Source of the DNA: Bacteriovoracaceae bacterium
GTDB taxonomy: Bacteria; Bdellovibrionota; Bacteriovoracia; Bacteriovoracales; Bacteriovoracaceae
Assembly: GCA_023954635.1 (NCBI GenBank)
Contig: JAGSHI010000015.1
Coordinates: 1 to 42,338 of the forward strand
Direction: 5' to 3'
DNA length: 42,338 nucleotides
A model generated the notes under the pieces. The model saw only the letters and a list, made by a program, of their open reading frames with translations, was not told the DNA's origin and did no database searches. Below are positions 10,242-23,735 of this stretch, in pieces (the stretch's first letter is position 1; each line of letters opens with the position of its first letter). The translations under genes and the position numbers were made by a program.

Positions 10242-10940
10242 ATGCATCATGTACATTTAGACGAAGTGGAGTCAACCCAGACTTATCTCAAAGAAAACCT
10301 CGAAGAGCTTAGAAGTATTCAGCAGAATGTTCTTGTTTCAACTAGATCTCAGACACTAGGGCAAGGTAGGTCTGGGAACTCTTGGCAATTTTTTGATAAC
10401 TCGCTCGCCTTCTCTTTTACGCTAGAGCCAAATGAGGAGTTAACTTTAACTAGTTTAGAGATTGGTGTTCTCCTTACAAAATTTTTTAAAGAGTACGACA
10501 GTCTTGAAATTTTATTAAAGTGGCCGAATGATCTTCTAAATTCTGACCTCGCAAAACTAGGTGGAATACTTTGTACTTACAAAGATCCGAAGACAATAGT
10601 CGTTGGTATAGGAATAAATTTAGGAAAGTCGGATGTTAACGATAGTGATTTTCCCTATCCAGTCTCTTCACTTTCAAGTGATTTGGTTCTTACAGAAAAT
10701 GATTACAGTGAAATACCTCGTGCAATTTATGATTTTATACTTACTAATAGAATTCGAAAAAATGCTCTTAAACCTTTATGGGACAAAGTTTGTGTTCACT
10801 TAAATAAGTCTGTTTCAATTATTGATGGTGAAAATAAAAAGACAGGGATATTTAAAGGCATCAGTCATGATGGTTCAGCACAACTTGAAATAGATGGAGA
10901 AGTTGAAACAGTCATGAATGGATCGTTATTTATTAATTAA
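10242..10940 (+). CDS. birA: Biotin-[acetyl-CoA carboxylase] ligase BirA (monofunctional)
   Basis: Activates biotin with ATP to biotinyl-AMP and attaches it to the biotin carboxyl carrier protein. The 232 residues comprise only the ligase: VESTQTYLK near the N-terminus, the biotinyl-AMP loop TLGQGRSGNSWQ (about 43-54), WPNDLLNSDLAKLGGILC (lysine around 105), VGIGINLG, and a short C-terminal beta domain ending in GEVETVMNGSLF. The N-terminal helix-turn-helix of bifunctional BirA is absent, so it should not repress biotin genes. The Shine-Dalgarno is GAGGAAAGG just upstream. Its 3' end overlaps the convergent receiver-domain gene by 8 bp. Confidence 0.9.
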   Translation: MHHVHLDEVESTQTYLKENLEELRSIQQNVLVSTRSQTLGQGRSGNSWQFFDNSLAFSFTLEPNEELTLTSLEIGVLLTKFFKEYDSLEILLKWPNDLLNSDLAKLGGILCTYKDPKTIVVGIGINLGKSDVNDSDFPYPVSSLSSDLVLTENDYSEIPRAIYDFILTNRIRKNALKPLWDKVCVHLNKSVSIIDGENKKTGIFKGISHDGSAQLEIDGEVETVMNGSLFIN

Positions 10941-12618
10941 TTGATTCTGAAATATCTCTAATTTCTTTTTTGATCAGATTCTCTGCTAAGTCAGGAATGA
11001 CTTCCCAAGCGACTTGCTCTACCTTATCACGACACATCTCTCGAACGAGATCTTCAATCATTGGTTTTAGTGACTCTTTTATCGATTCAATAATTTCATC
11101 TTTATCAATTTCAATCTCGACAACTTCTTCATGTGATTGCTGAGGAGCTTTAGGCTCAGTTTTCTCTTCGCGAGGTGGTTCTACATAATCACCTTTAGTC
11201 TCTAACGAATCAACCATGTCTGGATTCGCACCAGCACCTTCAACATATTCACTAATTGTTAAGTCTTGATTAGCACCTTTCTTATCATCAACCGCCCAAA
11301 ATTCATCAGGTGAGACCTCACTATCAATCTCATTGGCCAAATCAGATTGCTCATCTGCTGAACGAGAAAGTATCAATGGATCTGTTGCATCAAGCTCTTC
11401 GTCATCATCTTCACCATCATCTGGAGCAAGATCATCCATAGAAACTAGCTTAGATTTTGGTTCCCTTGGCTCTTCCGCCATTGATGATCCACCTAGATCT
11501 GGATAATCGAGGTCAGAATTATCAGGAACTTTTATTTCATCTTCTTCTGAAGCTTGCACAGCAACTGGTTCAGGTTCTGATTGAGCAACTTCTTCAATTA
11601 ATTCTGATTCAATTTCAGAACCTAAGTCTTCTAAATTCACAAGTTCAGAGCTTGTATCTTCAGAACTCGATATAACAGGAGGGAATAAAGAGTTATCCTC
11701 AGGTCCACCAATAACTCCAGGAATGCTCATGCCCCAAGATTCGATTTCATTATTCAAAGTTGATCCAGAGATTTCGCTCGTAGTTTTTTCACTATCTTCC
11801 TCCCAAAGTCCTCCACTGTTATCAAGTAGAGATTCATCTTCTTGGCTCGGACTGTCCACAACCCAACCATCATTCTCAGAGGTTAATTCTTCGTCAGCTT
11901 CTTGTTTAAAATAATCAGCACCTTCTTCTAATCCACTATTATCAGACGTGCCTTGTAAATCTACTTCTTCAGTAACTTCCTCATCCTCTGGTCCTAAATC
12001 TTCGGACTCATTAAAGTCGTCATTCTCTGTATGAAGCTGGATTTCTTCGGTTTTTTCACCAATATCCTCTTCTAAAACTTCTTCTTCCATAACTGAATCA
12101 GACTCCATTTCTGGTTCTGGCTCAACTATAATTTCAGTTTCTTCATCAGATAGAGAGATTTCTTCAGTTTGTTCTTCTTCATCCTCAATGACATCTGAGA
12201 CTTCTTCTGCTTCATCAGTAACTGATTCTTCTTTTTCATCATCCTCATCAAAAGATGAGTCTATAATGTCTGTACATTTTTGAACAAACTTTGCACTTTC
12301 AAATGGTTTAACAATTTTGTCATTAACTCCAATTTGCTCAAGTTGATTCTCATCAACAGAATCAAATGTGCCCAACATAACTAGTATATTTACACCTGGA
12401 GATATATTTAAAATTTCTTTGGCAAGATCATAACCGGATTTAGACTCTGACAAATTAAAGTCTAATAGAATGAGGTCATACTTTCGTACACTAATTTTAT
12501 CAAAGAGGTCAGTCTCATTTTTACATTGCTCTAACTCATAACCAGTTTCGGCCAGAGTTATTCCAACTACCTTTTGAATTGTTAAGCTGTCATCAGCGAC
12601 TAAAATTTTTGCCGTCAT
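10933..12618 (-). CDS. Receiver-domain protein with a very long acidic linker and a C-terminal helical domain
   Basis: Residues 1-120 are a response-regulator receiver domain with D9 and D10 (VADDS), phospho-acceptor D53 (LLDFN), T84 and K104 (VKPF). Residues about 121-480 form an extremely acidic, low-complexity stretch of E, D and S with no visible fold. The last 70 residues are helical (IDKDEIIESIKESLKPMIED ... VEQVAWEVIPDLAENLIKKE). I recall this type of C-terminus from receiver proteins of deltaproteobacteria but cannot name its function. There is no DNA-binding or enzymatic output domain, so output is probably by protein contact. The ATG at 12618 is chosen (GAGG 5 nt upstream) over an alternative start 11 codons earlier. 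It is the last gene of the FHA/PP2C block, 78 nt after the phosphatase. Confidence 0.82.
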   Translation of the reverse strand: MTAKILVADDSLTIQKVVGITLAETGYELEQCKNETDLFDKISVRKYDLILLDFNLSESKSGYDLAKEILNISPGVNILVMLGTFDSVDENQLEQIGVNDKIVKPFESAKFVQKCTDIIDSSFDEDDEKEESVTDEAEEVSDVIEDEEEQTEEISLSDEETEIIVEPEPEMESDSVMEEEVLEEDIGEKTEEIQLHTENDDFNESEDLGPEDEEVTEEVDLQGTSDNSGLEEGADYFKQEADEELTSENDGWVVDSPSQEDESLLDNSGGLWEEDSEKTTSEISGSTLNNEIESWGMSIPGVIGGPEDNSLFPPVISSSEDTSSELVNLEDLGSEIESELIEEVAQSEPEPVAVQASEEDEIKVPDNSDLDYPDLGGSSMAEEPREPKSKLVSMDDLAPDDGEDDDEELDATDPLILSRSADEQSDLANEIDSEVSPDEFWAVDDKKGANQDLTISEYVEGAGANPDMVDSLETKGDYVEPPREEKTEPKAPQQSHEEVVEIEIDKDEIIESIKESLKPMIEDLVREMCRDKVEQVAWEVIPDLAENLIKKEIRDISESIN

Positions 12619-12696
12619 ATATTCCTCAATAACATTTTCACCTAATCTCAATTACTTCGCAACAATTTGAATTAAATCCGACGAAAAAACTTGATA

Positions 12697-13434
12697 TTAA
12701 AACTGGAGGAAAATAGTCGATTGATTATCTAAATTCCCACGAGAATTGGCGAGATTAAAGAGTTCATCGATCTTTTCACTTTGAGGGAGGCTTTTTTCAA
12801 TAGTGTAGCAAATCTCTTTGGGTTCTACTCTACTGTAAACACCGTCTGACATGAGTATGAACAAGTCTTCTGGCAAAACTCTATACTCTGATATTTGGAG
12901 ATGAAGATCATCAAATAAACCAAAACCACTCATAGGAGCTGAGTGAAACTGGGGATCGTAATTATCTTTTGAGATAGTACGAAGAGAGTCCGGCTGAACA
13001 ACCACTTCAATATGTCCTCGTCTATATCTGTAACATAAACAATTTCCAGTCGAGGCAAAAGTAAGAATATTTTCAGCAAGTGCAGCACAAATGCCACTCG
13101 CTCCACCACGGTTAGACATTTCTTTCTCTGAATTTTCTTTCTTTAACAAACTATGTGCTAAATGAAGAGCATTTATGAGTGCATTCCCTTCAATTAAATA
13201 TTTATGGCTAAAATAGAAAGGAAGTGTTGAGTCAGGATCTCCACCAATTTTTGTATAAAACTTTTTAACTGTTTCTTTAACTAGCTCAACCGCCTTATCT
13301 CCAATATTTGTTCCGCCAAATCCATCAAATAATAAAAATAAATTATTCACTAGATCAATATCATGATCATCTTCATTTACTTGAAGGTAAGGTCCAGAAT
13401 CAGTTCTTGCGCTATAACTTTTTAGTTTAATCAT
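12697..13434 (-). CDS. PP2C-family serine/threonine protein phosphatase
   Basis: Metal-dependent phosphatase expected to remove phosphate from Ser/Thr residues in the cytoplasm. The 245-residue product shows the family's metal-binding motifs: acidic EDD at 21-23, FDGFGG (D37), MSDGVYSRV (D197) and GNLDNQST (D236, N237), plus GGASGICAAL and FASTGNCLCYRYRRG in the core strands. It is compact, with no regulatory extension and no membrane segment. It starts 2 nt after the stop of the large FHA-TPR gene, so the two are coupled. FHA domains bind phosphothreonine, so its likely substrates are partners of the neighbouring FHA proteins (inference). No cognate kinase is in the window. Confidence 0.85.
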   Translation of the reverse strand: MIKLKSYSARTDSGPYLQVNEDDHDIDLVNNLFLLFDGFGGTNIGDKAVELVKETVKKFYTKIGGDPDSTLPFYFSHKYLIEGNALINALHLAHSLLKKENSEKEMSNRGGASGICAALAENILTFASTGNCLCYRYRRGHIEVVVQPDSLRTISKDNYDPQFHSAPMSGFGLFDDLHLQISEYRVLPEDLFILMSDGVYSRVEPKEICYTIEKSLPQSEKIDELFNLANSRGNLDNQSTIFLQF

Positions 13435-13436
13435 CC

Positions 13437-15785
13437 CTAATCCAAATAATCTTTCAACTTCTCAGTAGCTTTTTGATAATACTCACTATCAGAAGGAGAA
13501 ATTTGTTGAACTTCTTGAAACTTTTCTTTCGCATCATTAAAAAGACTTAATGATTCCGAAATTATCGCTTCTCTATATATTTTACGTGAACGAATGGTTA
13601 ATTTGTCACTTATGTCATTCATCTCATTAAGTGCTTCCATGTGAGTTGGATCTACCTTCAATATTTCGCTGTAGATTTCATATGCACCCTTTAGGTCTTG
13701 ACCTTCACTCAATGATCGAGCTTTTCCAAGTAAAGGGTTAATTGCATCAGAAAGTTCTTTTTTAGAGGTATCAAGCATTTGACTTCCCTCTTTAACTAAA
13801 TCTTCATCCATCCCCTGAAGTCTTAAGAACTCTTCAAGTTTTAAAATTGCATTATGCCATTCTTTTTTTAAGTAATAGTTTTTACCAGGAGCAAGCTGGT
13901 CTACCATTCTCTTCCTTTCTGCTTTTTTCTGAGCTTCTTCAATGGCCTTTCTTTCTTGTTCTTTGACCCAGGCATCGAGCTCAATTTTCAGTTGAGGAAC
14001 ATCGAAGTTTTCTGGATCTAATTCCAAAATTTGAGCAAAGAATGCTTGTGCCGCTTCAACTTTTTTATCTTTAGTAGCTTCTTTCGCTCTAGTAACAAGT
14101 TCTTTAACTTTTTCCATTCTCTTTTTACGTTCTATTTCAGCTTGTTTTTTTCTTTCTAATTCTTCTAATTTTGCAAGGCCTTGTTTCGCAAGATCATAGA
14201 GAGTCTTCGATTGTTTATATTCGGGAGTCATTGTAAATATTTTTTCCAACTCATCCATAGCTTCTTTATATTTACCTTGATCAAAAAACTCTTTTGCTAA
14301 AAGGTAAGTTGAATCAAGAAACTCTAACTCTTCAGGTTTGAATTTTTTAGCAAGACGAGGATCTGTACCCTTTTTCTTTGCTACTTTATCTTTATCTTTA
14401 AGACCTCTCGATTTTGCATCTTTTCCTTTTGGACCAGGTGGCTTAGGAGCTGGCTCTTCATCTAGTAATACCCAAGCTCCAATTAATCCCACAACAATAT
14501 AGAGAAGTTTCTTTCTCTTTTCAGGATCCTGTAAGGCCTCTTTCGAAAACAGTGAACCTCCGCTAGATTTAGCTGCTTCTGCAGGTTCTCCAAAACTCTC
14601 ACCATCAATAACGACATCACCTTCCGGCAAATCGGCATCATTAAAATCTTCTGAGACTTCTACAATTTGCTGAACTTCTATCTCCTGCCCTTCTTCAACT
14701 GGCATAAGTCGACTTTCTTCTTCTTTTAGAAGGTCAGAAATAATATGAACTGTAAAAGTGGTTTCACCAATAATGAATTCATCATTGTTTGTAAGGTTTG
14801 ATTTATTTACTCTTTCACCGTTTAGAAGTGTTCCATTCCCAGAATTTAAATCTTCTAATACGCATGTAATGTTATTCTTTCTAACGATGGCATGTTTTGC
14901 AGAAACTTCAGGGTCATTTAAAACAATATCGCACTTTTCTGGATCTCTACCAATAATAGTCTCAGGCTTATCAATAATAAATTTGTCAAATGGTGCGACT
15001 TCACCAAATAATTCTAGTTCAAATCGAGCGAATGTTTGAAAGACTTTTGTTGATTCATCATCAACAGTATCAACGGCGTAGTCATCTGCTCCTTCATCGA
15101 ACATGTCTCCATCACCATCCTCGTCATAATCAAAGCCATCTCCCTCAGAGTCTTCATTATCACCATCTTCTTGTTCAAAATCACTACTCGTAAAGTCTGG
15201 ACTCTCTTCTTCTTCATCTCCTCCAAAGAGATCATCTTCACCTTCATCAGAAGAGCTTGCAAACTCATCAACCTCACCTTCTTCACCACCAAGCTCGTCT
15301 GCTGATTCGTCAAGTTGTTCAGTTTCAGTTTCAGTTTGTGCTTCACTATTTACTTCTTCTGGACTCGACTCTTCTTCAAGTTCTGGAGAATCTAATACTT
15401 CGGTTGCGGCCTCATCAACTTCAACAGGTGCTTCACTCTCATTTGGAGTCTCTTCATTTTGAGTAATAACGGGACCAATCCCAAAAACATTTAAGATATA
15501 TGGTCCAACAGTTATCACATCACCATTATTTAGTTCTTTTTCATCTACCGGGACACCATTGACGATTAATCCGCCATAATCAGACACCTGGCCAATAGTC
15601 CAATTTCCTTCTTTATATGTAATTTTTGCGTGCTCTCTCGATACTTGTTGATCTTCTAGACAGACATGACAATCATCGCTTCGACCGATAAACATAGATA
15701 CAGAAGCATCTCCAATGCCTTGGATCTCAGAAGAAAGATCTGCTTCTTCTACTAATTTGTTGTCTCGTAGCACACTAAGTTTCAC
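13437..15785 (-). CDS. Membrane protein with two FHA domains, acidic linkers and TPR repeats
   Basis: Phosphothreonine-reading scaffold, 782 residues. FHA-1 (about 30-105) has the signature G34-R35-S36 and S49-R50-E51-H52. Residues 110-245 are an extremely acidic linker. FHA-2 (about 276-350) has GRDPEKCDIVL, SAKHAIV and LNSGNGTLLNG (N314, N317). After a second acidic stretch, KRKKLLYIVVGLIGAWVLL (423-441) is a single membrane segment preceded by basic residues. From about 490 to the end are TPR-like repeats interrupted by a K/E-rich helical section. With the basic flank inside, the FHA half should be cytoplasmic and the TPR half periplasmic (inference). It overlaps the preceding FHA gene by 4 bp, and the PP2C gene follows after 2 nt. 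Confidence 0.86.
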   Translation of the reverse strand: MKLSVLRDNKLVEEADLSSEIQGIGDASVSMFIGRSDDCHVCLEDQQVSREHAKITYKEGNWTIGQVSDYGGLIVNGVPVDEKELNNGDVITVGPYILNVFGIGPVITQNEETPNESEAPVEVDEAATEVLDSPELEEESSPEEVNSEAQTETETEQLDESADELGGEEGEVDEFASSSDEGEDDLFGGDEEEESPDFTSSDFEQEDGDNEDSEGDGFDYDEDGDGDMFDEGADDYAVDTVDDESTKVFQTFARFELELFGEVAPFDKFIIDKPETIIGRDPEKCDIVLNDPEVSAKHAIVRKNNITCVLEDLNSGNGTLLNGERVNKSNLTNNDEFIIGETTFTVHIISDLLKEEESRLMPVEEGQEIEVQQIVEVSEDFNDADLPEGDVVIDGESFGEPAEAAKSSGGSLFSKEALQDPEKRKKLLYIVVGLIGAWVLLDEEPAPKPPGPKGKDAKSRGLKDKDKVAKKKGTDPRLAKKFKPEELEFLDSTYLLAKEFFDQGKYKEAMDELEKIFTMTPEYKQSKTLYDLAKQGLAKLEELERKKQAEIERKKRMEKVKELVTRAKEATKDKKVEAAQAFFAQILELDPENFDVPQLKIELDAWVKEQERKAIEEAQKKAERKRMVDQLAPGKNYYLKKEWHNAILKLEEFLRLQGMDEDLVKEGSQMLDTSKKELSDAINPLLGKARSLSEGQDLKGAYEIYSEILKVDPTHMEALNEMNDISDKLTIRSRKIYREAIISESLSLFNDAKEKFQEVQQISPSDSEYYQKATEKLKDYLD

Positions 15786-16840
15786 TTATTATTATCTCCG
15801 CTCTTGCGTTCCTTTCTCTCATGATCATCAAAACATTTAATTTCACCAAATAACTTACCCAATTCTTTTTCAACAATGGCTATACTATTTTCAGCGTCAA
15901 TTCGCCTTTCATCCTCTGGTTTATTCTGCAACATTCTAACAATTGAACAATAACTATTTTTTGCTTCTATATACCTTAAAGCCTCTGCTTCTCTTTTTGC
16001 TTTAATAAATACTAAGTCAATTTCCGCATCTAACCTTTGCTTAGCTTTATTTAAGTAGAAACTTGCTCTACCATTGGCAGGACTCAAAATTAAAGCGAGA
16101 TTAAATTCTCTAATCGCTCTAAAATAATTCCCTTCTCTAAACTCTCTTTGACCTCTATGTATAATTGCTTCCAACTTATCTCTTGTTTCTTTATTTTCCT
16201 CTTGGTCTTGTCTTCTAATTCTATCCTCAAGAGAGTCTACTTTAGTCTTTTTCTGTTTTGCCTTTGTTGCTTTTGGTGCAGGCTTTTCTTCTTCACCTAA
16301 CATTACCCAAGCTCCGACCAGAACAACTGCAAAAATGAGCAACTTCTTTCTTTTTTCCTCAGGAGTAGGTTCCTTTTTATTTTTCTTTTTCTTAGGTTTT
16401 TCCTCTTCCTCTTCATCCTCGTCGTCTTCCCACTCTTCATCATCATCTTCGTCTTCGTCTTCATCAACTTCTTCGAGTGCTTTTTCTACAATATTGTATC
16501 TATTAAACTTAAAAACTGTTTGACCAATAATAATTTTGTCACCATCTGATAATGTATGCTGACTAATTTTAAGATCATTAACAATAACTCCGTTATGACT
16601 TCCTAAATCTGTAACAACATATTTACCTGCAACTTTTGTTAATTCAGCATGCTCACGAGACGATTTTGCATCAATCACTTGAACATCTGCTGTTTCACTC
16701 CTTCCCATTACGAGACGCTGGCCCTTTAAGTAATAACTAAGACCTTTATTTTTACCAGTCATGCATAATAGTCGAAAATGCTCCCCTGCTATTTCAGGAG
16801 GGCTAATATCACGACTAATTTTTACATTCGCGGTAGCCAT
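15782..16840 (-). CDS. Membrane protein with one FHA domain and TPR-like repeats
   Basis: The 352-residue protein is a shorter paralogue of its downstream neighbour. The FHA domain spans about 43-118, with G46-R47-S48, S61-R62-E63-H64 and LGSHNGVIVND (N83-G84). It is followed by a solid acidic run (124-147), a lysine cluster, and one membrane segment at about 165-181 (KRKKLLIFAVVLVGAWVML), which closely resembles the segment in the next protein, including the GEEEKPAPK that follows. Residues 205-340 contain TPR-like helices (REGNYFRAIREFNLALILSP). The layout suggests an FHA domain in the cytoplasm and TPRs in the periplasm. It lies 6 nt after the preceding FHA gene and overlaps the following one by 4 bp. 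Confidence 0.85.
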   Translation of the reverse strand: MATANVKISRDISPPEIAGEHFRLLCMTGKNKGLSYYLKGQRLVMGRSETADVQVIDAKSSREHAELTKVAGKYVVTDLGSHNGVIVNDLKISQHTLSDGDKIIIGQTVFKFNRYNIVEKALEEVDEDEDEDDDEEWEDDEDEEEEEKPKKKKNKKEPTPEEKRKKLLIFAVVLVGAWVMLGEEEKPAPKATKAKQKKTKVDSLEDRIRRQDQEENKETRDKLEAIIHRGQREFREGNYFRAIREFNLALILSPANGRASFYLNKAKQRLDAEIDLVFIKAKREAEALRYIEAKNSYCSIVRMLQNKPEDERRIDAENSIAIVEKELGKLFGEIKCFDDHERKERKSGDNNK

Positions 16841-16846
16841 TTATTC

Positions 16847-18421
16847 TTACTCTTCTTTCACAAAAGTTATATAAAATGCTTTTGCAAAATTATCTTTTCC
16901 CATTAGAGATGCAACACACACTCTATGCTCGACCCCTTGCAACTCATAATTCCCCTCTTCCATGATTCCCCCACCATTAGCGGAGTTATCACAAAGCTCA
17001 ATAACAGTTGCAGCGAAACCTTTCTCTCTCGAAACATCTAATAAACTCATGTCCATTGCTGCTGACTCTCTAATCGAAGTCAGATCTTCGGCCTCAATAT
17101 TAATTGCTTTAAGGTTTTTCTCAGAATTTAAAACCATAGTAGGTACACCGGAGCCTCTAATAAACTCTTTAAGTGTTGAGACATAACCTTCGTCAGATTC
17201 AGCTTCTCCAAATTCATCAGATTCTTCATTTTTAAGTTCTCTAATTCTTTGCAGAACTGAGTTGATACTATTTCGAAGTGATCCAAGCTCACCCATTAAA
17301 TACCTTGACTCTAGGTTTCTTCTTTTACCTCTAAGAGCTTCCTCAATTTGATATTTCATCTCTTCCAATGGTCTTAATGTCATATAATAGACAACCCCAA
17401 AGAAGACAATCGCTGCGAGTAGCGCCGTGACAATAGATTCAAGGTAAGCTTTTTGAGACTTCGTCGCTTCAACAGCTAAGGATTTCGGTGAAAACCTAAT
17501 TGAAATGATACCTACGGGCTCCATAATCCCAAGTCGAGCATTATAGGCCATAATTTTTTTACCAATCCCAATTTCATCACCACTTAGAAGCTTTTTATAA
17601 ACTTTATTACCATCATCATCTTTACTTGCCATGGCCCATTCTCTCACCTGGACAGAAAACGGATCGGAGATATAATCATTTAGTTTTTCCATTGGACGAA
17701 CAATACGTCCTTCGAGATCAAATAGCTCATAGGCCTGAACGCCATCTTCACTATTTAAAAACTGAGTATTAACTTGATCTAAGTTTTTTGATTCTAGTGC
17801 ACGAGAGTTCATTCTCGAAATTTCTTCAGCGTAGTGAGCTCCACGTTTTGCCGTTTCAAATAGAAGAATTTGTTTCGTAGATTGTAAAACTGGATAAATA
17901 ATCAACGTCACGACGACAAAAACGAATACTGTTAAGACAATACCAAGAAGATACTTCCATTCATATTCTTCATTAATACCGTGAATAACATTCATGATCC
18001 TATATTTAAAGAAGTGCAAAATTTTTGCTACGATGTTATCAGGTGGATTTCCTCCACTGAAGATCACATCGATATCATCTTCATCATCCTCTTCATCGTC
18101 GGTTGCTTTTTTCTTAACGATAATTTTCTTCTCTTTTACAAAAACAACCTGAAGAATTAAATCTGGCAATGCAATTTTGTCACCATTTTTAGCTGTGGCC
18201 CTTTTTATGATTTTGCCATTTAAAAATGTTCCATTAGAGCTGCCCATGTCTTGTACATAGGCGACATCATCAGTAACAGTAATGCTCATATGTTTCTTAG
18301 AAACACCATTAACTGTAAGTGTAATGTCACAATCATCAGAGCGGCCGAGAGTATTCTCTCCATCTTCTAAAACAAACTCTTGTCCTCGAAGTTTCCCGCC
18401 AACTGCTACTAGTTTGTACAT
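16847..18421 (-). CDS. FHA-domain transmembrane sensor with periplasmic and HAMP-like domains, no kinase
   Basis: The 524-residue protein begins with an FHA domain (about 24-95: G26-R27-S28, S41 with H44, GSSNGTFLNG). An acidic linker leads to a first membrane segment (157-178), a periplasmic domain of about 145 residues, a second membrane segment (328-347), a HAMP-like linker opening with LRPLEEM (349-355) and extending to about 397, an acidic spacer, and a C-terminal domain (412-524) that looks PAS-like (VPTMVLNSEKNLKAINIEAE). There is no histidine kinase, cyclase or methyl-accepting output, so it would signal by protein contact. The gene overlaps the DUF192 gene by 13 bp and belongs to the same operon as the other FHA genes. 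Confidence 0.84.
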   Translation of the reverse strand: MYKLVAVGGKLRGQEFVLEDGENTLGRSDDCDITLTVNGVSKKHMSITVTDDVAYVQDMGSSNGTFLNGKIIKRATAKNGDKIALPDLILQVVFVKEKKIIVKKKATDDEEDDEDDIDVIFSGGNPPDNIVAKILHFFKYRIMNVIHGINEEYEWKYLLGIVLTVFVFVVVTLIIYPVLQSTKQILLFETAKRGAHYAEEISRMNSRALESKNLDQVNTQFLNSEDGVQAYELFDLEGRIVRPMEKLNDYISDPFSVQVREWAMASKDDDGNKVYKKLLSGDEIGIGKKIMAYNARLGIMEPVGIISIRFSPKSLAVEATKSQKAYLESIVTALLAAIVFFGVVYYMTLRPLEEMKYQIEEALRGKRRNLESRYLMGELGSLRNSINSVLQRIRELKNEESDEFGEAESDEGYVSTLKEFIRGSGVPTMVLNSEKNLKAINIEAEDLTSIRESAAMDMSLLDVSREKGFAATVIELCDNSANGGGIMEEGNYELQGVEHRVCVASLMGKDNFAKAFYITFVKEE

Positions 18422-18753
18422 ACTACCTCTAAGGTTTCTCCCTCATTGATATCAGAAGGTAAAGTACCTCCGGCCATTTCTAAAACTTGATGTGATTTAA
18501 AATATATCCATGTCATTCGCCATGGCTTAATCTCTCTAATAATCTTCACAACAGTCATATTCTTATCTAAAAAAATAACATCGATATTGTATCTCATAAA
18601 ACATGTATGAATCGAATTACATGGCTTTATCAAAAGAGCATCAAATCCAACCAAGCTTTTCGAAAACATTAAACCAATTAAACGTGTAACAAATCCGTCA
18701 GCAACTTTGACTTCTTCTGCGATCGTTTGATTTTTAAACTTTATCTTCATCAT
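18409..18753 (-). CDS. DUF192 family protein
   Basis: The 114-residue product fits DUF192: FVTRLIGLMF near the N-terminus, the hallmark CNSIHTCFMRYNIDVIFLDK (about 46-65) and KPWRMTWIYFKSHQVLEMAGG before the end. The biochemical role of the family is unknown to me. Many members carry a signal peptide, but this one does not. The ATG follows the tadC stop codon directly (TAA-ATG), and a second ATG is the next codon. The 3' end overlaps the FHA sensor gene by 13 bp. The close packing points to translational coupling and a shared job with the TadC/FHA genes, but nothing in the sequence says what that is. Confidence 0.85.
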   Translation of the reverse strand: MMKIKFKNQTIAEEVKVADGFVTRLIGLMFSKSLVGFDALLIKPCNSIHTCFMRYNIDVIFLDKNMTVVKIIREIKPWRMTWIYFKSHQVLEMAGGTLPSDINEGETLEVVCTN

Positions 18754-19662
18754 TTAATTATTCTCATTTAAGTACTGCAGAACCAGTGGCGCGCCCACGA
18801 CGAGGAAAACCGCTGGTACAATTAAAAACATCATAGGAAATAAAATTTTAGTTGCGGCTGTAGCACCAGCCTTCTCTGCTTCTGCCGATTTTTTCTGTCG
18901 AATTTCAGCCGACAAGGCTTTAAGAATAGGTCCAATAGAAGCACCAACAGAGTCGGCAGCAATTAGCGTTGCACAGAATGATGAAATCGTAATCATATCA
19001 ATTCTCCACGCAAAATTTCGAAGGGCCTCAGCTCTACTGGCACCAACTTTAATTTCTCTAATTAAAATTTCAAACTCTTCGGTAAGGGCACCGGCCTTTG
19101 CCTTCTCAATTACTTTTGTCATTGCGGCAATGAAATCTAGCCCCGCTTCAACAGAGAGAGCAAGCATATCAACAGCAAAAGGCATCTCCATAGTGATTAA
19201 CTTTTGTCTCTTTTGAATTTTTCCATTAATCCAAATGTCTGGATAAAAGAACCCTACAAAAGCGAGAACTGGTATGGCCTTCATGGGCCATGTTTCACCA
19301 AGAAATTCACGAAGCCCCAGAAAAGTTATAGGAAATCCGATAATCAAAAATAATTTAAACGAATAAAAATCTTCTGGTGTTAAAACCTGGGTTAGTCCTG
19401 CTGCTGCAAGCTTTCGCTTATACCTTTCTTTAATCTGTTTCTTTTTCTTCATTTGCGAAACAATTGGAGAAACATATCTTTTAAAAAATGGTCTTGAATA
19501 TTTTAGAATTGCACCATGAGATGCAATCAGGTCTTTTGTATCTGACTCTGAATCTTCTAGTTTCTCTTGCGCCTTAAATTCCTCTTCATCTTGAAACACT
19601 GTATTAGTAACAATGAAAACAGCTATTCCAATCATTCCGACGGCGGCGTACATCAATAACAT
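18754..19662 (-). CDS. TadC-like inner-membrane platform protein (type II secretion F domain)
   Basis: Inner-membrane platform protein of the Tad/Flp pilus or type II secretion type. The 302-residue protein has an N-terminal membrane segment, a basic region (KKKKQIKERYKRKLAAAGL), membrane segments at about 105-145, the cytoplasmic F-domain helices (EMPFAVDMLALSVEAGLDF, EIKVGASRAEALRNFA, SVGASIGPILKALSAEIRQ), and a C-terminal membrane pair (ILFPMMFLIVPAVFLVVGAP). This is the TadC arrangement. The partners TadA and TadB that normally precede it are absent from the window; nagZ is the upstream neighbour. A perfect AGGAGG lies 7 nt before the ATG, the strongest Shine-Dalgarno in this block, which fits it being the first gene of the signalling operon. 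A TATACT at 19707-19712 could be part of its promoter, without a good -35. Confidence 0.85.
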   Translation of the reverse strand: MLLMYAAVGMIGIAVFIVTNTVFQDEEEFKAQEKLEDSESDTKDLIASHGAILKYSRPFFKRYVSPIVSQMKKKKQIKERYKRKLAAAGLTQVLTPEDFYSFKLFLIIGFPITFLGLREFLGETWPMKAIPVLAFVGFFYPDIWINGKIQKRQKLITMEMPFAVDMLALSVEAGLDFIAAMTKVIEKAKAGALTEEFEILIREIKVGASRAEALRNFAWRIDMITISSFCATLIAADSVGASIGPILKALSAEIRQKKSAEAEKAGATAATKILFPMMFLIVPAVFLVVGAPLVLQYLNENN

Positions 19663-19773: not shown

Positions 19774-20853
19774 TTATGCCCGAGGTTTTTCCTCAATTTG
19801 TGAGATTATATCTCTCATAAATGTTTGTGAGGCCTTGGTATTAACAGACTTTTGAATGTCTGGAATATAATTTGGTTTATAGTCTGCTAAGTTTGATTTT
19901 TTTACTTCGTAAATTCTATCAACTTTTTGTTTCACATCTTCACTTTTCAATTCTTTATTTTTCAAAGCTTCTTTAAGTGCACTATAGGCCATCATCGCCT
20001 GATCGACATCACGATATTCGATAATATCTGCCCCGGCCTTTATGGCCATAACAGCAGCTTCTCCAGTTGAATATTTGTTTGTAATCGCCTGCATTTGCAT
20101 ATCATCAGTAATAATTATTTTGGAGAACTTGAGTTCTTCTCTCAATAACTCATAGGCCTTTGAACTTAAAGTACATGGAAGTTCTGGATCAATTCCTTCA
20201 ACAATTAAATGGGCCATCATGACAAATTCAACTCTACTTTTAACGGCCTTGATAAAAGGTTGAAACTCAACTTCTCTTAATTGTTCAATAGTTTTATCAA
20301 CTACAGGTAACGTAAAGTGTGAATCTTTTGAAGTACAACCATGCCCTGGAAAATGTTTTGCACAGGCAAGAATTCCATTTGTTTGAAGTCCTCTGATTAC
20401 TGAAGAAATATATTTTGAGACAACTTCTGCATCGTCACCAAATGCTCTGTCACCAATCACTTGATTTTCGGGATGTGTAACAACATCACAAACTGGCGCC
20501 AAGTTAATATTTATTCCACATGAAAGTAACTCTTCGGCCATTATTTTTGCGATATGAAAAACAATTTTCGGAGAACCTGTTCGAGATAAATCCAACATTG
20601 GAGGTATTTGTGTAAAGTGATTTTTAAATCTAACAACTCTCCCACCCTCGTGATCAACGGCCACAAAGAGAGGATATTCATTTCTAAGTTTTTGTATATC
20701 GTTAACTAGTTCGGCGAGTTGAGCAGGAGATTCAAAGTTTTCACTGAAGAGTAAGACTCCACCTATATTCTCTTTTTCAATAAACTCTGATTCTTCTGGG
20801 GTAAGTGATGTTCCACTTAAACCAGTCATAATCAGTTGACCAAGGTTGCTCAT
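19774..20853 (-). CDS. nagZ: Beta-N-acetylhexosaminidase NagZ (glycoside hydrolase family 3)
   Basis: Removes non-reducing GlcNAc from muropeptides during cell-wall recycling, in the cytoplasm. The 359-residue product has no signal peptide. It shows VAVDHEGGRVVRF (66-76), APVCDVV, the NagZ-specific KHFPGHGCTSKDSH (166-179, with the D177/H179 catalytic dyad), and IITDDMQM (nucleophile D250). The family length is 340-360. A GGAGG Shine-Dalgarno lies 4 nt before the ATG, and an 8-bp inverted repeat sits just upstream of it. The gene has its own promoter (20910-20937) and lies 111 bp upstream of tadC on the same strand. Its substrate can come from lytic transglycosylases such as the one at 1345-3447. 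Confidence 0.95.
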   Translation of the reverse strand: MSNLGQLIMTGLSGTSLTPEESEFIEKENIGGVLLFSENFESPAQLAELVNDIQKLRNEYPLFVAVDHEGGRVVRFKNHFTQIPPMLDLSRTGSPKIVFHIAKIMAEELLSCGININLAPVCDVVTHPENQVIGDRAFGDDAEVVSKYISSVIRGLQTNGILACAKHFPGHGCTSKDSHFTLPVVDKTIEQLREVEFQPFIKAVKSRVEFVMMAHLIVEGIDPELPCTLSSKAYELLREELKFSKIIITDDMQMQAITNKYSTGEAAVMAIKAGADIIEYRDVDQAMMAYSALKEALKNKELKSEDVKQKVDRIYEVKKSNLADYKPNYIPDIQKSVNTKASQTFMRDIISQIEEKPRA

Positions 20854-20867
20854 TTCGCCTCCAAATT

Positions 20868-20888
20868 AATCGAATAATTTATTCGATT
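20868..20888. promoter_or_regulatory. Inverted repeat in the nagZ leader
   Basis: AATCGAAT (20868-20875) and ATTCGATT (20881-20888) are perfect inverted copies separated by 5 bp. They lie between the nagZ -10 box and its Shine-Dalgarno. This is a typical operator geometry, or a small leader hairpin. Confidence 0.45.
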
Positions 20889-20909
20889 CAATACCGAAGT
20901 ATCCAAGCT

Positions 20910-20937
20910 ATTATAAACCTCAAAGAGAGAAATACAA
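20910..20937 (-). promoter_or_regulatory. nagZ promoter
   Basis: On the minus strand TTGTAT (20937-20932), a 16-nt spacer and a perfect TATAAT (20915-20910) precede the start codon by about 57 nt. Confidence 0.6.
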
Positions 20938-21016
20938 CTGAATGACTTACTGAATAGGTGTTTGTAAGAAACTACAAGAATACCCTACTTACCCAGTGCC
21001 AAAATGGAACCAAAAA

Positions 21017-21814
21017 TTAATTTGATTTAGAACCTTTGTATGACTGAGTGAACCCTTGAGAAACCCAAAATATTTTTTGAATTTTTGCGCGACTGTCCAA
21101 AAGATAGAAGATACTTTGTCCACCGGCCTCAAGAGTAAATCTAGAAAAACCATTTTTAGTTTTACCATCATATTTTAAAGTCGCTCTCGAGAAGACTTCT
21201 TCTCTAGTATTAATATATTGCTCCATAAAATATGGGTATCCTTCCCAAATAATATGGAAGTACATCTCTCCTGCTTGCTTACCAATCGCCTGGTTTAAAA
21301 ACCCTGTAACCGACGCACAATCAATCACCTGACTAAAGAAACAGTAGACACCTTTCCCTTTTGGAAAGGGAAAATTCTTTGTTCCATTCCATTGTTTTTC
21401 AGGGCTCGACATTTTCACAACTAGTGATTTATTTTTCGTGTCGAGTAACATCTCTGTAAAGAACTTTTGTTTTTCAAACCAAACGGTATATTGGCTGCGA
21501 AAAGGTCTAAGAACGGTGAGACTTTTTAATTTTCCGGGGTTACTAATGACAATACTTCTCTCAAGAGGTTTTTTAGTAGGATCATCATTTGAGAAAACTT
21601 GCCTCTTCAATATGAGTTGATTTTTATTCTTTATATACCCATTTTCTCTTTCGACAATAAATCTTCCGGACTTATCTTCGAGATCATAGATTCTTTTTGA
21701 ATTAGATTTAGTTAAATTATTTGTGCTGGATTTTTTAAAAAAAGAACATCCCTGCAGCAAAAGCAAGGATGTTAAACATAAAAGAACATTTGATTTAATC
21801 AACGAAATTTTCAA
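21017..21814 (-). CDS. Lipoprotein of unknown function
   Basis: I do not recognise this 265-residue protein. It opens with a clear lipoprotein signal: basic start, SNVLLCLTSLLLLQGC with the lipobox cysteine at residue 23, then a Ser/Asn/Lys-rich tether. The mature part is beta-rich, with repeated aromatic strands such as SQYTVWFEKQKFFTEM, YFHIIWEGYPYFMEQY and FSRFTLEAGGQSIFYL, suggesting a periplasmic beta-structured domain. No catalytic motif is seen. The TTG at 21814 lies within the last codons of the PilZ-like gene (20-bp overlap); another TTG at 21802 is also possible, and neither has a good Shine-Dalgarno. It is the third gene of a likely mreB-pilZ-lipoprotein operon, so it may act at the envelope (inference). 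Confidence 0.75.
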   Translation of the reverse strand: MKISLIKSNVLLCLTSLLLLQGCSFFKKSSTNNLTKSNSKRIYDLEDKSGRFIVERENGYIKNKNQLILKRQVFSNDDPTKKPLERSIVISNPGKLKSLTVLRPFRSQYTVWFEKQKFFTEMLLDTKNKSLVVKMSSPEKQWNGTKNFPFPKGKGVYCFFSQVIDCASVTGFLNQAIGKQAGEMYFHIIWEGYPYFMEQYINTREEVFSRATLKYDGKTKNGFSRFTLEAGGQSIFYLLDSRAKIQKIFWVSQGFTQSYKGSKSN

Positions 21815-22664
21815 AATCTTTCTGAATATTTTCTTCTGATTCAGACTCTTCTATTTTTTTATTCACTAAGGTTGTCAACTCAGGAGTTTCTCCAAACGTA
21901 AATCCAATTTTTGCCATTGGAAGATTGCCCATTCTAGGATTTACGTAGTCTACATTATAAACCATCTTTGCAGAGCTCAAGTTAAATACCTCTTTTTCAA
22001 AAAGAAGAGTAATATTTAAGTCACTGCTAGTATCAGTAAAATAATCTTTTTCTTTTTCATTAACGAGAAATGCGACTCCAGAATTAGAAAGATCTAATAC
22101 TCTAAAGCCAATAAGCTCATCATCTTGGTCACTTTCAACTCTGTCCTGGGCCTCTAAAATTTCTTCGTTCGTTAACTCTTGAAACTTTTTAAATGCATTA
22201 TGATTCGCTTCAATATGCTTATTTAAAAAAACAAGATTCTCAGTATCTGGTTGTTTTTGAATTTTAAAATATGAATAAACTTGAAAATGTGGGTAAGTAA
22301 GAAGTCTTTCATTTCCTCGTTTCTCAACTTTAAAAACATGTGGACTCATTTCAAACCAGAAGTCTTCGTTTCCTAGAACTTCAACCACATTTCCTTTTGT
22401 GAAATATTCAAGTCCATTCAATGTGAACTGAAGAAATAATTCTTTCTCTTTCCACGACTCATCAACTTTTCCAAGTCGTAATCTTAATTGCTGGCAAAAT
22501 GCTTCTCCCTCTTCATTGCTATGGCTATTTATAACCTCACACAAATCAGGAGCATCTCCTTTTTCCCAGATTTTAACTTTTTCCTTACTAGCAACCAGAT
22601 TTGAAATATCTTCAATTAATTCAGTCCAGTCTAGCTCTATAAAATTGGATGATGATGCTTCCAT
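21795..22664 (-). CDS. PilZ-like domain protein
   Basis: The 289-residue cytoplasmic protein has an N-terminal region of unknown type (about 1-150, rich in E, W and F, with no membrane segment) and a C-terminal beta-barrel stretch with PilZ features: FRVLDLSNSGVAFLVNE (about 187-203; the D-x-S-x-x-G element that binds c-di-GMP), then LNITLLFEKEVFNLSSAKMV and AKIGFTFGE. The arginine motif RxxxR expected just before is not evident, so nucleotide binding is uncertain. It begins 12 nt after the mreB stop, behind GGGGAG, and is therefore probably co-expressed with MreB. A PilZ-like adaptor linked to the elongation machinery is an inference from position. Confidence 0.65.
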   Translation of the reverse strand: MEASSSNFIELDWTELIEDISNLVASKEKVKIWEKGDAPDLCEVINSHSNEEGEAFCQQLRLRLGKVDESWKEKELFLQFTLNGLEYFTKGNVVEVLGNEDFWFEMSPHVFKVEKRGNERLLTYPHFQVYSYFKIQKQPDTENLVFLNKHIEANHNAFKKFQELTNEEILEAQDRVESDQDDELIGFRVLDLSNSGVAFLVNEKEKDYFTDTSSDLNITLLFEKEVFNLSSAKMVYNVDYVNPRMGNLPMAKIGFTFGETPELTTLVNKKIEESESEENIQKDFENFVD

Positions 22665-22676
22665 ACCAACTCCCCA

Positions 22677-23735
<1,059 letters not shown>

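Follow-up and report, generated by a model that had tools for sequence, protein, structure and literature searches.

A TadC-FHA-PP2C gene block of a Bacteriovoracaceae bacterium and its probable part in the Tad pilus of Bdellovibrionota

The gene block and its conservation

A block of genes on the minus strand of a Bacteriovoracaceae contig (GenBank assembly GCA_023954635.1, contig JAGSHI010000015.1) was followed up in this work, in a window of 42,338 nucleotides that is the whole contig (C41) of an assembly with 219 contigs and 3.70 Mb. The block encodes a TadC protein, a DUF192 protein, three membrane FHA proteins over which four FHA domains are spread (Pfam), a PP2C phosphatase and a receiver protein, and our findings identify it as half of a Tad (type IVb) pilus locus, separated from the rest of that locus, not as a free-standing machine without a kinase. 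An earlier reading of this DNA made without database searches (the sequence-only reading) had described these open reading frames and their products; the frames lie where it placed them, on the minus strand, and the products agree with the Pfam matches:

18754-19662, minus strand: TadC inner-membrane platform protein, 302 amino acids (aa) (T2SSF, 2.9e-15); orthologues head the block in relatives
18409-18753, minus strand: DUF192 protein between TadC and FHA1, 114 aa (DUF192, 5.9e-17)
16847-18421, minus strand: FHA1, 524 aa (FHA, 1.8e-16)
18167-18352, minus strand: FHA domain of FHA1, with conserved phosphothreonine pocket R27, S41, H44, N63, G64 and N68
15782-16840, minus strand: FHA2, 352 aa (FHA, 4.3e-16)
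16523-16711, minus strand: FHA domain of FHA2
13437-15785, minus strand: FHA3, 782 aa, GTG start, probable counterpart of Bd0474 by its published architecture and length (FHA, 3.1e-34, two stretches; TPR matches)
15504-15689, minus strand: first FHA domain of FHA3
14766-14960, minus strand: second FHA domain of FHA3
12697-13434, minus strand: PP2C phosphatase, 245 aa, probable counterpart of Bd0475 (PP2C_2, 1.1e-5; motif survey)
10933-12651, minus strand: receiver protein, 572 aa, likely start ATG at 12618 (Response_reg, 3.9e-15)

In the upstream sequence, GGAGAGGAGG precedes the ATG of the TadC gene. The intergenic gaps, in order of transcription from TadC to the receiver, are 0, -13, +6, -4, +2 and +45 nt, and with such tight spacing at least the first six genes (TadC to PP2C) look like one operon. 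The close packing noted in the sequence-only reading was therefore confirmed, its count of seven genes plus the receiver being corrected to six plus the receiver; in agreement with it, the window genes that were scanned include no kinase, TadA or pilin.

The arrangement is kept in relatives. Among the pairs that could be scored in 113 related loci, same-strand adjacency was retained for TadC-DUF192 in 102 of 103, for DUF192-FHA1 in 104 of 104, for FHA1-FHA2 in 101 of 101, for FHA2-FHA3 in 94 of 94, for FHA3-PP2C in 96 of 96 and for PP2C-receiver in 75 of 76. Such near-unbroken adjacency is far from chance, and the absence of co-conservation, which the sequence-only reading had named as a ground for abandoning its proposal, was not what we observed. 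FHA1 was found in 235 of 241 genomes of the phylum, and on this distribution the predicted six-gene operon is ancient. A receiver gene adjoining the block was seen only in the family of the source genome and, judging from gene order, is a family-specific addition; its product has an N-terminal REC domain that keeps DD, D64 and K115, followed by a long acidic region and a conserved C-terminal end. The named relatives of the block TadC, among the matches listed, belong mostly to Bacteriovoracaceae and Halobacteriovoraceae. Ahead of tadC, at 19774-23714 of the window, are genes for MreB, a weakly PilZ-like 289-aa protein, a 265-aa protein and NagZ, in an order that the fetched loci of this family share, at times with two additional genes inserted.

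The second half of the Tad locus

The end of contig C49 of the source genome carries the final part of a secretin gene, a TadZ-TadA fusion of 731 aa (CbiA/MinD plus T2SSE domains), TadB and then an RHS protein, without TadC. The platform pair is thus complete, with TadC in the block and TadB on C49, and the idea of the sequence-only reading that this is a regulatory half whose motor lies elsewhere is upheld by the secretin, the fusion and TadB of this contig. C49 is cut before CpaB, ending before the pilins and the prepilin peptidase. In relatives of the same family the second locus is complete, with small Flp-type open reading frames, a prepilin peptidase, minor pilin-like frames, CpaB, secretin, TadZA, TadB and RHS. 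Pfam gave RcpC (8.2e-19) and Secretin (1.5e-11) in one relative; in relatives the pilins match Flp_Fap weakly (4.4e-4) and carry GQxxxEY motifs, and the prepilin peptidase matches Peptidase_A24 at 4.2e-5, just under its cut-off.

The two halves adjoin in other families. The six-gene block lies beside Tad motor genes in four of them (f4, f8, f15 and f24), and the whole locus is contiguous in two, f15 (G044) and f8 (G101), in the order TadC-DUF192-FHA1-FHA2-FHA3-PP2C-Flp/TadE-like-CpaB-secretin-TadZA-TadB-RHS, which brings TadB and TadC into one locus. In G003 (f4) the block continues into CpaB, secretin, a TadZA-type protein and finally an RHS protein; CpaB, secretin and TadZA also follow it in G007, a second f8 genome, up to the end of the stretch that was fetched; G125 (f24) has a TadA-like protein of 377 aa one gene past PP2C; and in G062 (f8) both halves are about 30 kb apart on one contig. 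Since the pilus locus adjoins the block in relatives, the machine can be identified as the Tad pilus, and the seemingly orphan TadC is explained by a Tad locus split in two. A kinase and a pilus locus next to these genes in relatives had been named beforehand as evidence against an uncharacterised system; the pilus locus is there, and no kinase was seen beside the block or pilus loci of relatives. The machine is accordingly not an uncharacterised one, and predation phenotypes have already been published for the Bdellovibrio counterpart of the block (PMC6561027).

That counterpart was compared through a Bdellovibrio-like genome in one contig (G048), used as a stand-in for comparison with the HD100 genes. 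Its block lies at 468 kb and its TadZA at 101 kb; its last two block proteins, of 674 and 228 aa, have the published lengths of Bd0474 and Bd0475, and its Bd0473 counterpart is 376 aa as the open reading frame was called, against 386 for Bd0473. By gene order, lengths and approximate position, the block would thus match the operon Bd0470-Bd0475 of Bdellovibrio bacteriovorus, in which Bd0474 and Bd0475 belong together with Bd0470-Bd0473 (PMC12034629) and Bd0470 is annotated as TadC. Mutant Bd0470::tn fails to attach and kill, and Bd0474::tn attaches yet neither kills nor rounds prey (PMC6561027). Bd0474 binds Bd0075 via extracytoplasmic TPR parts (PMC12034629), and bd0470 falls along with bd0108-0121 in host-independent strains (PMC3818213). 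On another contig of the source genome (G000:C16:3944-4837), a 1051-aa frame has weak similarity to a Bd0075-type TPR protein, that is, to the partner of Bd0474.

Transcription may differ between the two halves: a good promoter of FliA-like type, TAAA-N15-GCCGATAA, lies 5' of the first Flp-type gene of a same-genus relative (L195:15188-15260, minus strand), whereas upstream of tadC, over 111 loci, such a promoter showed no enrichment and none of that type was found. The source genome also holds a second Tad locus (G000:C40:16500-34000, L037) with a prepilin peptidase, secretin, CpaB, TadA, TadB, TadC and pilin-like genes.

FHA proteins, phosphatase and candidate kinase

FHA1 is laid out as a cytoplasmic FHA domain, a transmembrane (TM) segment, a periplasmic Cache-like sensor, a second TM segment, a HAMP-like coil and a PAS domain. 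Its AlphaFold model has a mean predicted local distance difference test score (pLDDT) of 83 and a low predicted template modelling score of 0.41, and its top Foldseek match is the sensor kinase WalK (9a5d, E 7.3e-14, 389 columns), from which FHA1 may be read as a Cache-HAMP-PAS sensor with an N-terminal FHA domain and without a kinase core. FHA2 has a cytoplasmic FHA domain, one TM segment at about residues 160-181 and a helical, TPR-like periplasmic part (model pLDDT 85), and FHA3 has two FHA domains, an acidic linker, a short hydrophobic TM-like stretch and a TPR part.

The PP2C of the window has intact NED, DGFGG, SDG and DN motifs, and the full set of metal-binding motifs (DGxGG, SDG, DN) was found in 68 of 75 loci of the source genome's family, where the enzyme is predicted to be catalytically intact. 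Outside this family D37 is kept in only 4 of 21 loci, and the motifs are lost in the versions of Bdellovibrio-like genomes and of families f11, f18, f21, f22, f23, f26 and f27. These degenerate forms are still homologous to the intact one (profile comparison 98.6%, E 7e-16); PP2C structures are their sole PDB matches (E about 0.007), and their Pfam matches are isolated and weak. By its motifs the degenerate PP2C, including the Bd0475 counterpart, looks like a pseudophosphatase. PppA (6jkv) is among the nearest solved sequences to PP2C, and the Bdellovibrio-like genomes examined also hold a separate PP2C-family gene. Elsewhere in the source genome, another PP2C gene adjoins a partial kinase-like gene (G000:C197:8024-9416) in what seems to be a separate phosphatase-kinase pair, and similar adjacent pairs occur in some relatives.

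A Pkinase match was obtained in all 32 genomes tested, exactly one in 14 of them (E 1e-6), and in those 14 the sole match lies in a frame of about 640-830 aa. This candidate membrane Ser/Thr kinase, found by profile search in 233 of 241 genomes, has an N-terminal kinase domain in which K44, E63, HRD, N156 and DFG are invariant (19 of 19, across families), then a hydrophobic stretch and, at the C-terminus, a part that is PEGA in the Bdellovibrio-like version. Parsimony makes it our best candidate for the kinase of the block, and further kinase-like fragments occur in the source genome. The sequence-only reading placed the kinase elsewhere in the genome, and a candidate is indeed present on contig C86, its link to the block being our proposal. 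There (G000:C86:80.1-89.9 kb; L038:5107-14949) about 7 kb separate the kinase gene from one for an FHA-GGDEF protein of DgcB type, an arrangement that recurs in two further genomes of the family (L207 and L209). In several other families the genes close to the kinase are those for CoaE and an AMP-binding enzyme, and the kinase neighbourhood was rejected as a link to Tad. In the work on the structure of DgcB, Bd3148 was put forward as the DgcB kinase (PMC6733907); by its rough genome position, Bd3148 is probably the candidate found here.

Proposed gating of the pilus and comparison with known systems

We consider it likely that the block is half of the main Tad pilus apparatus of Bdellovibrionota joined to a phosphothreonine module that would gate the pilus in prey contact. 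What was observed here is which genes are present and in what order, their division between two loci, the conservation of motifs and the architecture of domains. We hypothesize that TadC completes the inner-membrane platform, with TadB, the TadZ-TadA motor, secretin, CpaB and Flp pilins supplied from the second locus (C49), and that the FHA proteins and PP2C would constitute the signalling module. FHA1 would be a membrane sensor with a cytoplasmic phosphothreonine reader, and FHA2 and FHA3 would combine cytoplasmic readers with periplasmic TPR scaffolds. The kinase, its targets and the succession of steps are our inference. A membrane Ser/Thr kinase encoded at another site would act on Tad or partner proteins; these would then be drawn to the platform by the FHA domains, which would permit the passage from attachment to killing, and in the source genome's family PP2C would reverse the phosphorylation.

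Several points weigh against this proposal. Phosphorylation and FHA binding are predictions from the genes, and FHA2 shows erosion of its distal pocket (N83, G84) in some families outside that of the source genome. Given the loss of PP2C catalytic residues in most other families examined, dephosphorylation by PP2C is not a universal step. FHA1 occurs without a kinase match in 8 of 241 genomes and the kinase without an FHA1 match in 6 of 241, perhaps owing to incompleteness of metagenome-assembled genomes. A kinase whose presence tracks the block had been suggested as a check; a near-universal kinase was found, and since the block is near-universal too, their co-occurrence is uninformative and cannot tie the two.

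It must also be considered whether the FHA domains are mainly structural scaffolds, like YscD of type III secretion, with vestigial phosphothreonine binding. Pfam Yop-YscD_cpl matches all three FHA proteins as well, a membrane-anchored FHA domain with a periplasmic part resembles YscD, and PP2C is degenerate in many families. We nevertheless regard this as unlikely, since conservation in FHA1, across families that share 19-66% identity, is concentrated in the pocket residues (S41, N63, G64 and N68 are kept in all of 108 loci and R27 in 103) and the R and S of the remaining FHA domains are nearly invariant. The closest structures to the FHA domains of FHA1 and FHA2 are the phosphothreonine-binding GarA, OdhI and KGD complexes, not YscD, with FHA2 closest to GarA/OdhI and the Bdellovibrio DgcB also matching. 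In addition, the ring-building parts of YscD are alpha/beta, unlike the modelled helical periplasmic part of FHA2.

That the FHA and PP2C genes are passive neighbours of tadC, sensing envelope or growth and controlling, for example, cyclic di-GMP or the cell wall in place of the pilus, seems to us quite improbable. MreB, NagZ and two other genes do flank the block throughout the source genome's family, and the pairing of FHA-GGDEF with the kinase elsewhere indicates that phosphothreonine signalling has other clients; yet the block order, TadC first, is retained in loci of more than 10 families despite different flanks, Tad motor genes adjoin it in four families, and mutants of Bd0470 and of Bd0474 are both defective in predation (PMC6561027). 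Service to the Tad locus on C40 instead of the C49 half is very improbable, for although C40 has FHA-like proteins nearby, it has its own TadB and TadC, and TadA of its type turned up in no more than one or two of the 24 genomes checked, against 24 of 24 for the best-scoring, C49-type TadZA.

Within the gating proposal, a bolder extension can be put forward tentatively, as one we judge possible and somewhat doubtful: that one phylum-wide membrane Ser/Thr kinase would be the prey-contact switch, its phosphothreonines being read by the four Tad FHA domains and by DgcB, coupling the pilus to cyclic di-GMP, with the Tad phosphatase now a non-catalytic pseudophosphatase in Bdellovibrio and many relatives. 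It was already known that the Tad pilus matters for Bdellovibrio predation and that TadC and the two-FHA protein are required (PMC6561027). New here are the phylum-wide contiguity, the intact versus degenerate phosphatase, the FHA1 sensor architecture and the single-kinase candidate for the module, none of which was described in the open-licence papers searched. Together they offer a list of parts, open to testing, for the possible gating of a killing pilus through threonine phosphorylation in predatory bacteria: an FHA protein that resembles a sensor, two more that resemble scaffolds, a phosphatase that is intact in one family but probably inactive in others, and a single conserved candidate kinase, the sole one detected in many genomes. 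They also assign the published but unexplained Bd0474, along with the hypothetical protein Bd0475 next to it, to a Tad apparatus that extends through the phylum.

Among known systems, Bd0470-Bd0475 of Bdellovibrio bacteriovorus has the same genes as the block in the same order (TadC, FHA proteins, a TPR-bearing Bd0474 with its pair of FHA domains, a 228-aa last gene) and is likewise split from a Tad operon, bd0109-bd0119 (TadA/TadB/RcpA/RcpC and the RHS protein Bd0109) (PMC6561027, PMC12034629, PMC5430801). The source block differs in its intact PP2C, degenerate in the Bdellovibrio-like counterpart, and in the added receiver gene, and the pilin half in its family has a prepilin peptidase gene. 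The Kil system of Myxococcus xanthus is also a Tad-like, FHA-rich apparatus split over two clusters and used on prey contact (PMC8460266, PMC12075869). The source genome shares the split clusters with many FHA proteins; KilF, in turn, has an N-terminal FHA domain, whereas none was found at the N-terminus of TadZA, where the domain is TadZ/MinD-like (MinD/CbiA). In the threonine phosphorylation pathway of type VI secretion (PpkA, PppA, Fha1), an FHA reader and a PP2C likewise tune a contact-dependent machine; here the machine is the Tad pilus, the kinase lies outside the cluster and there are several membrane FHA proteins. Finally, DgcB (Bd0742), an FHA-GGDEF protein of prey invasion, is likewise a phosphothreonine reader in predation (PMC6733907), but it is a soluble cyclase encoded outside the Tad locus.

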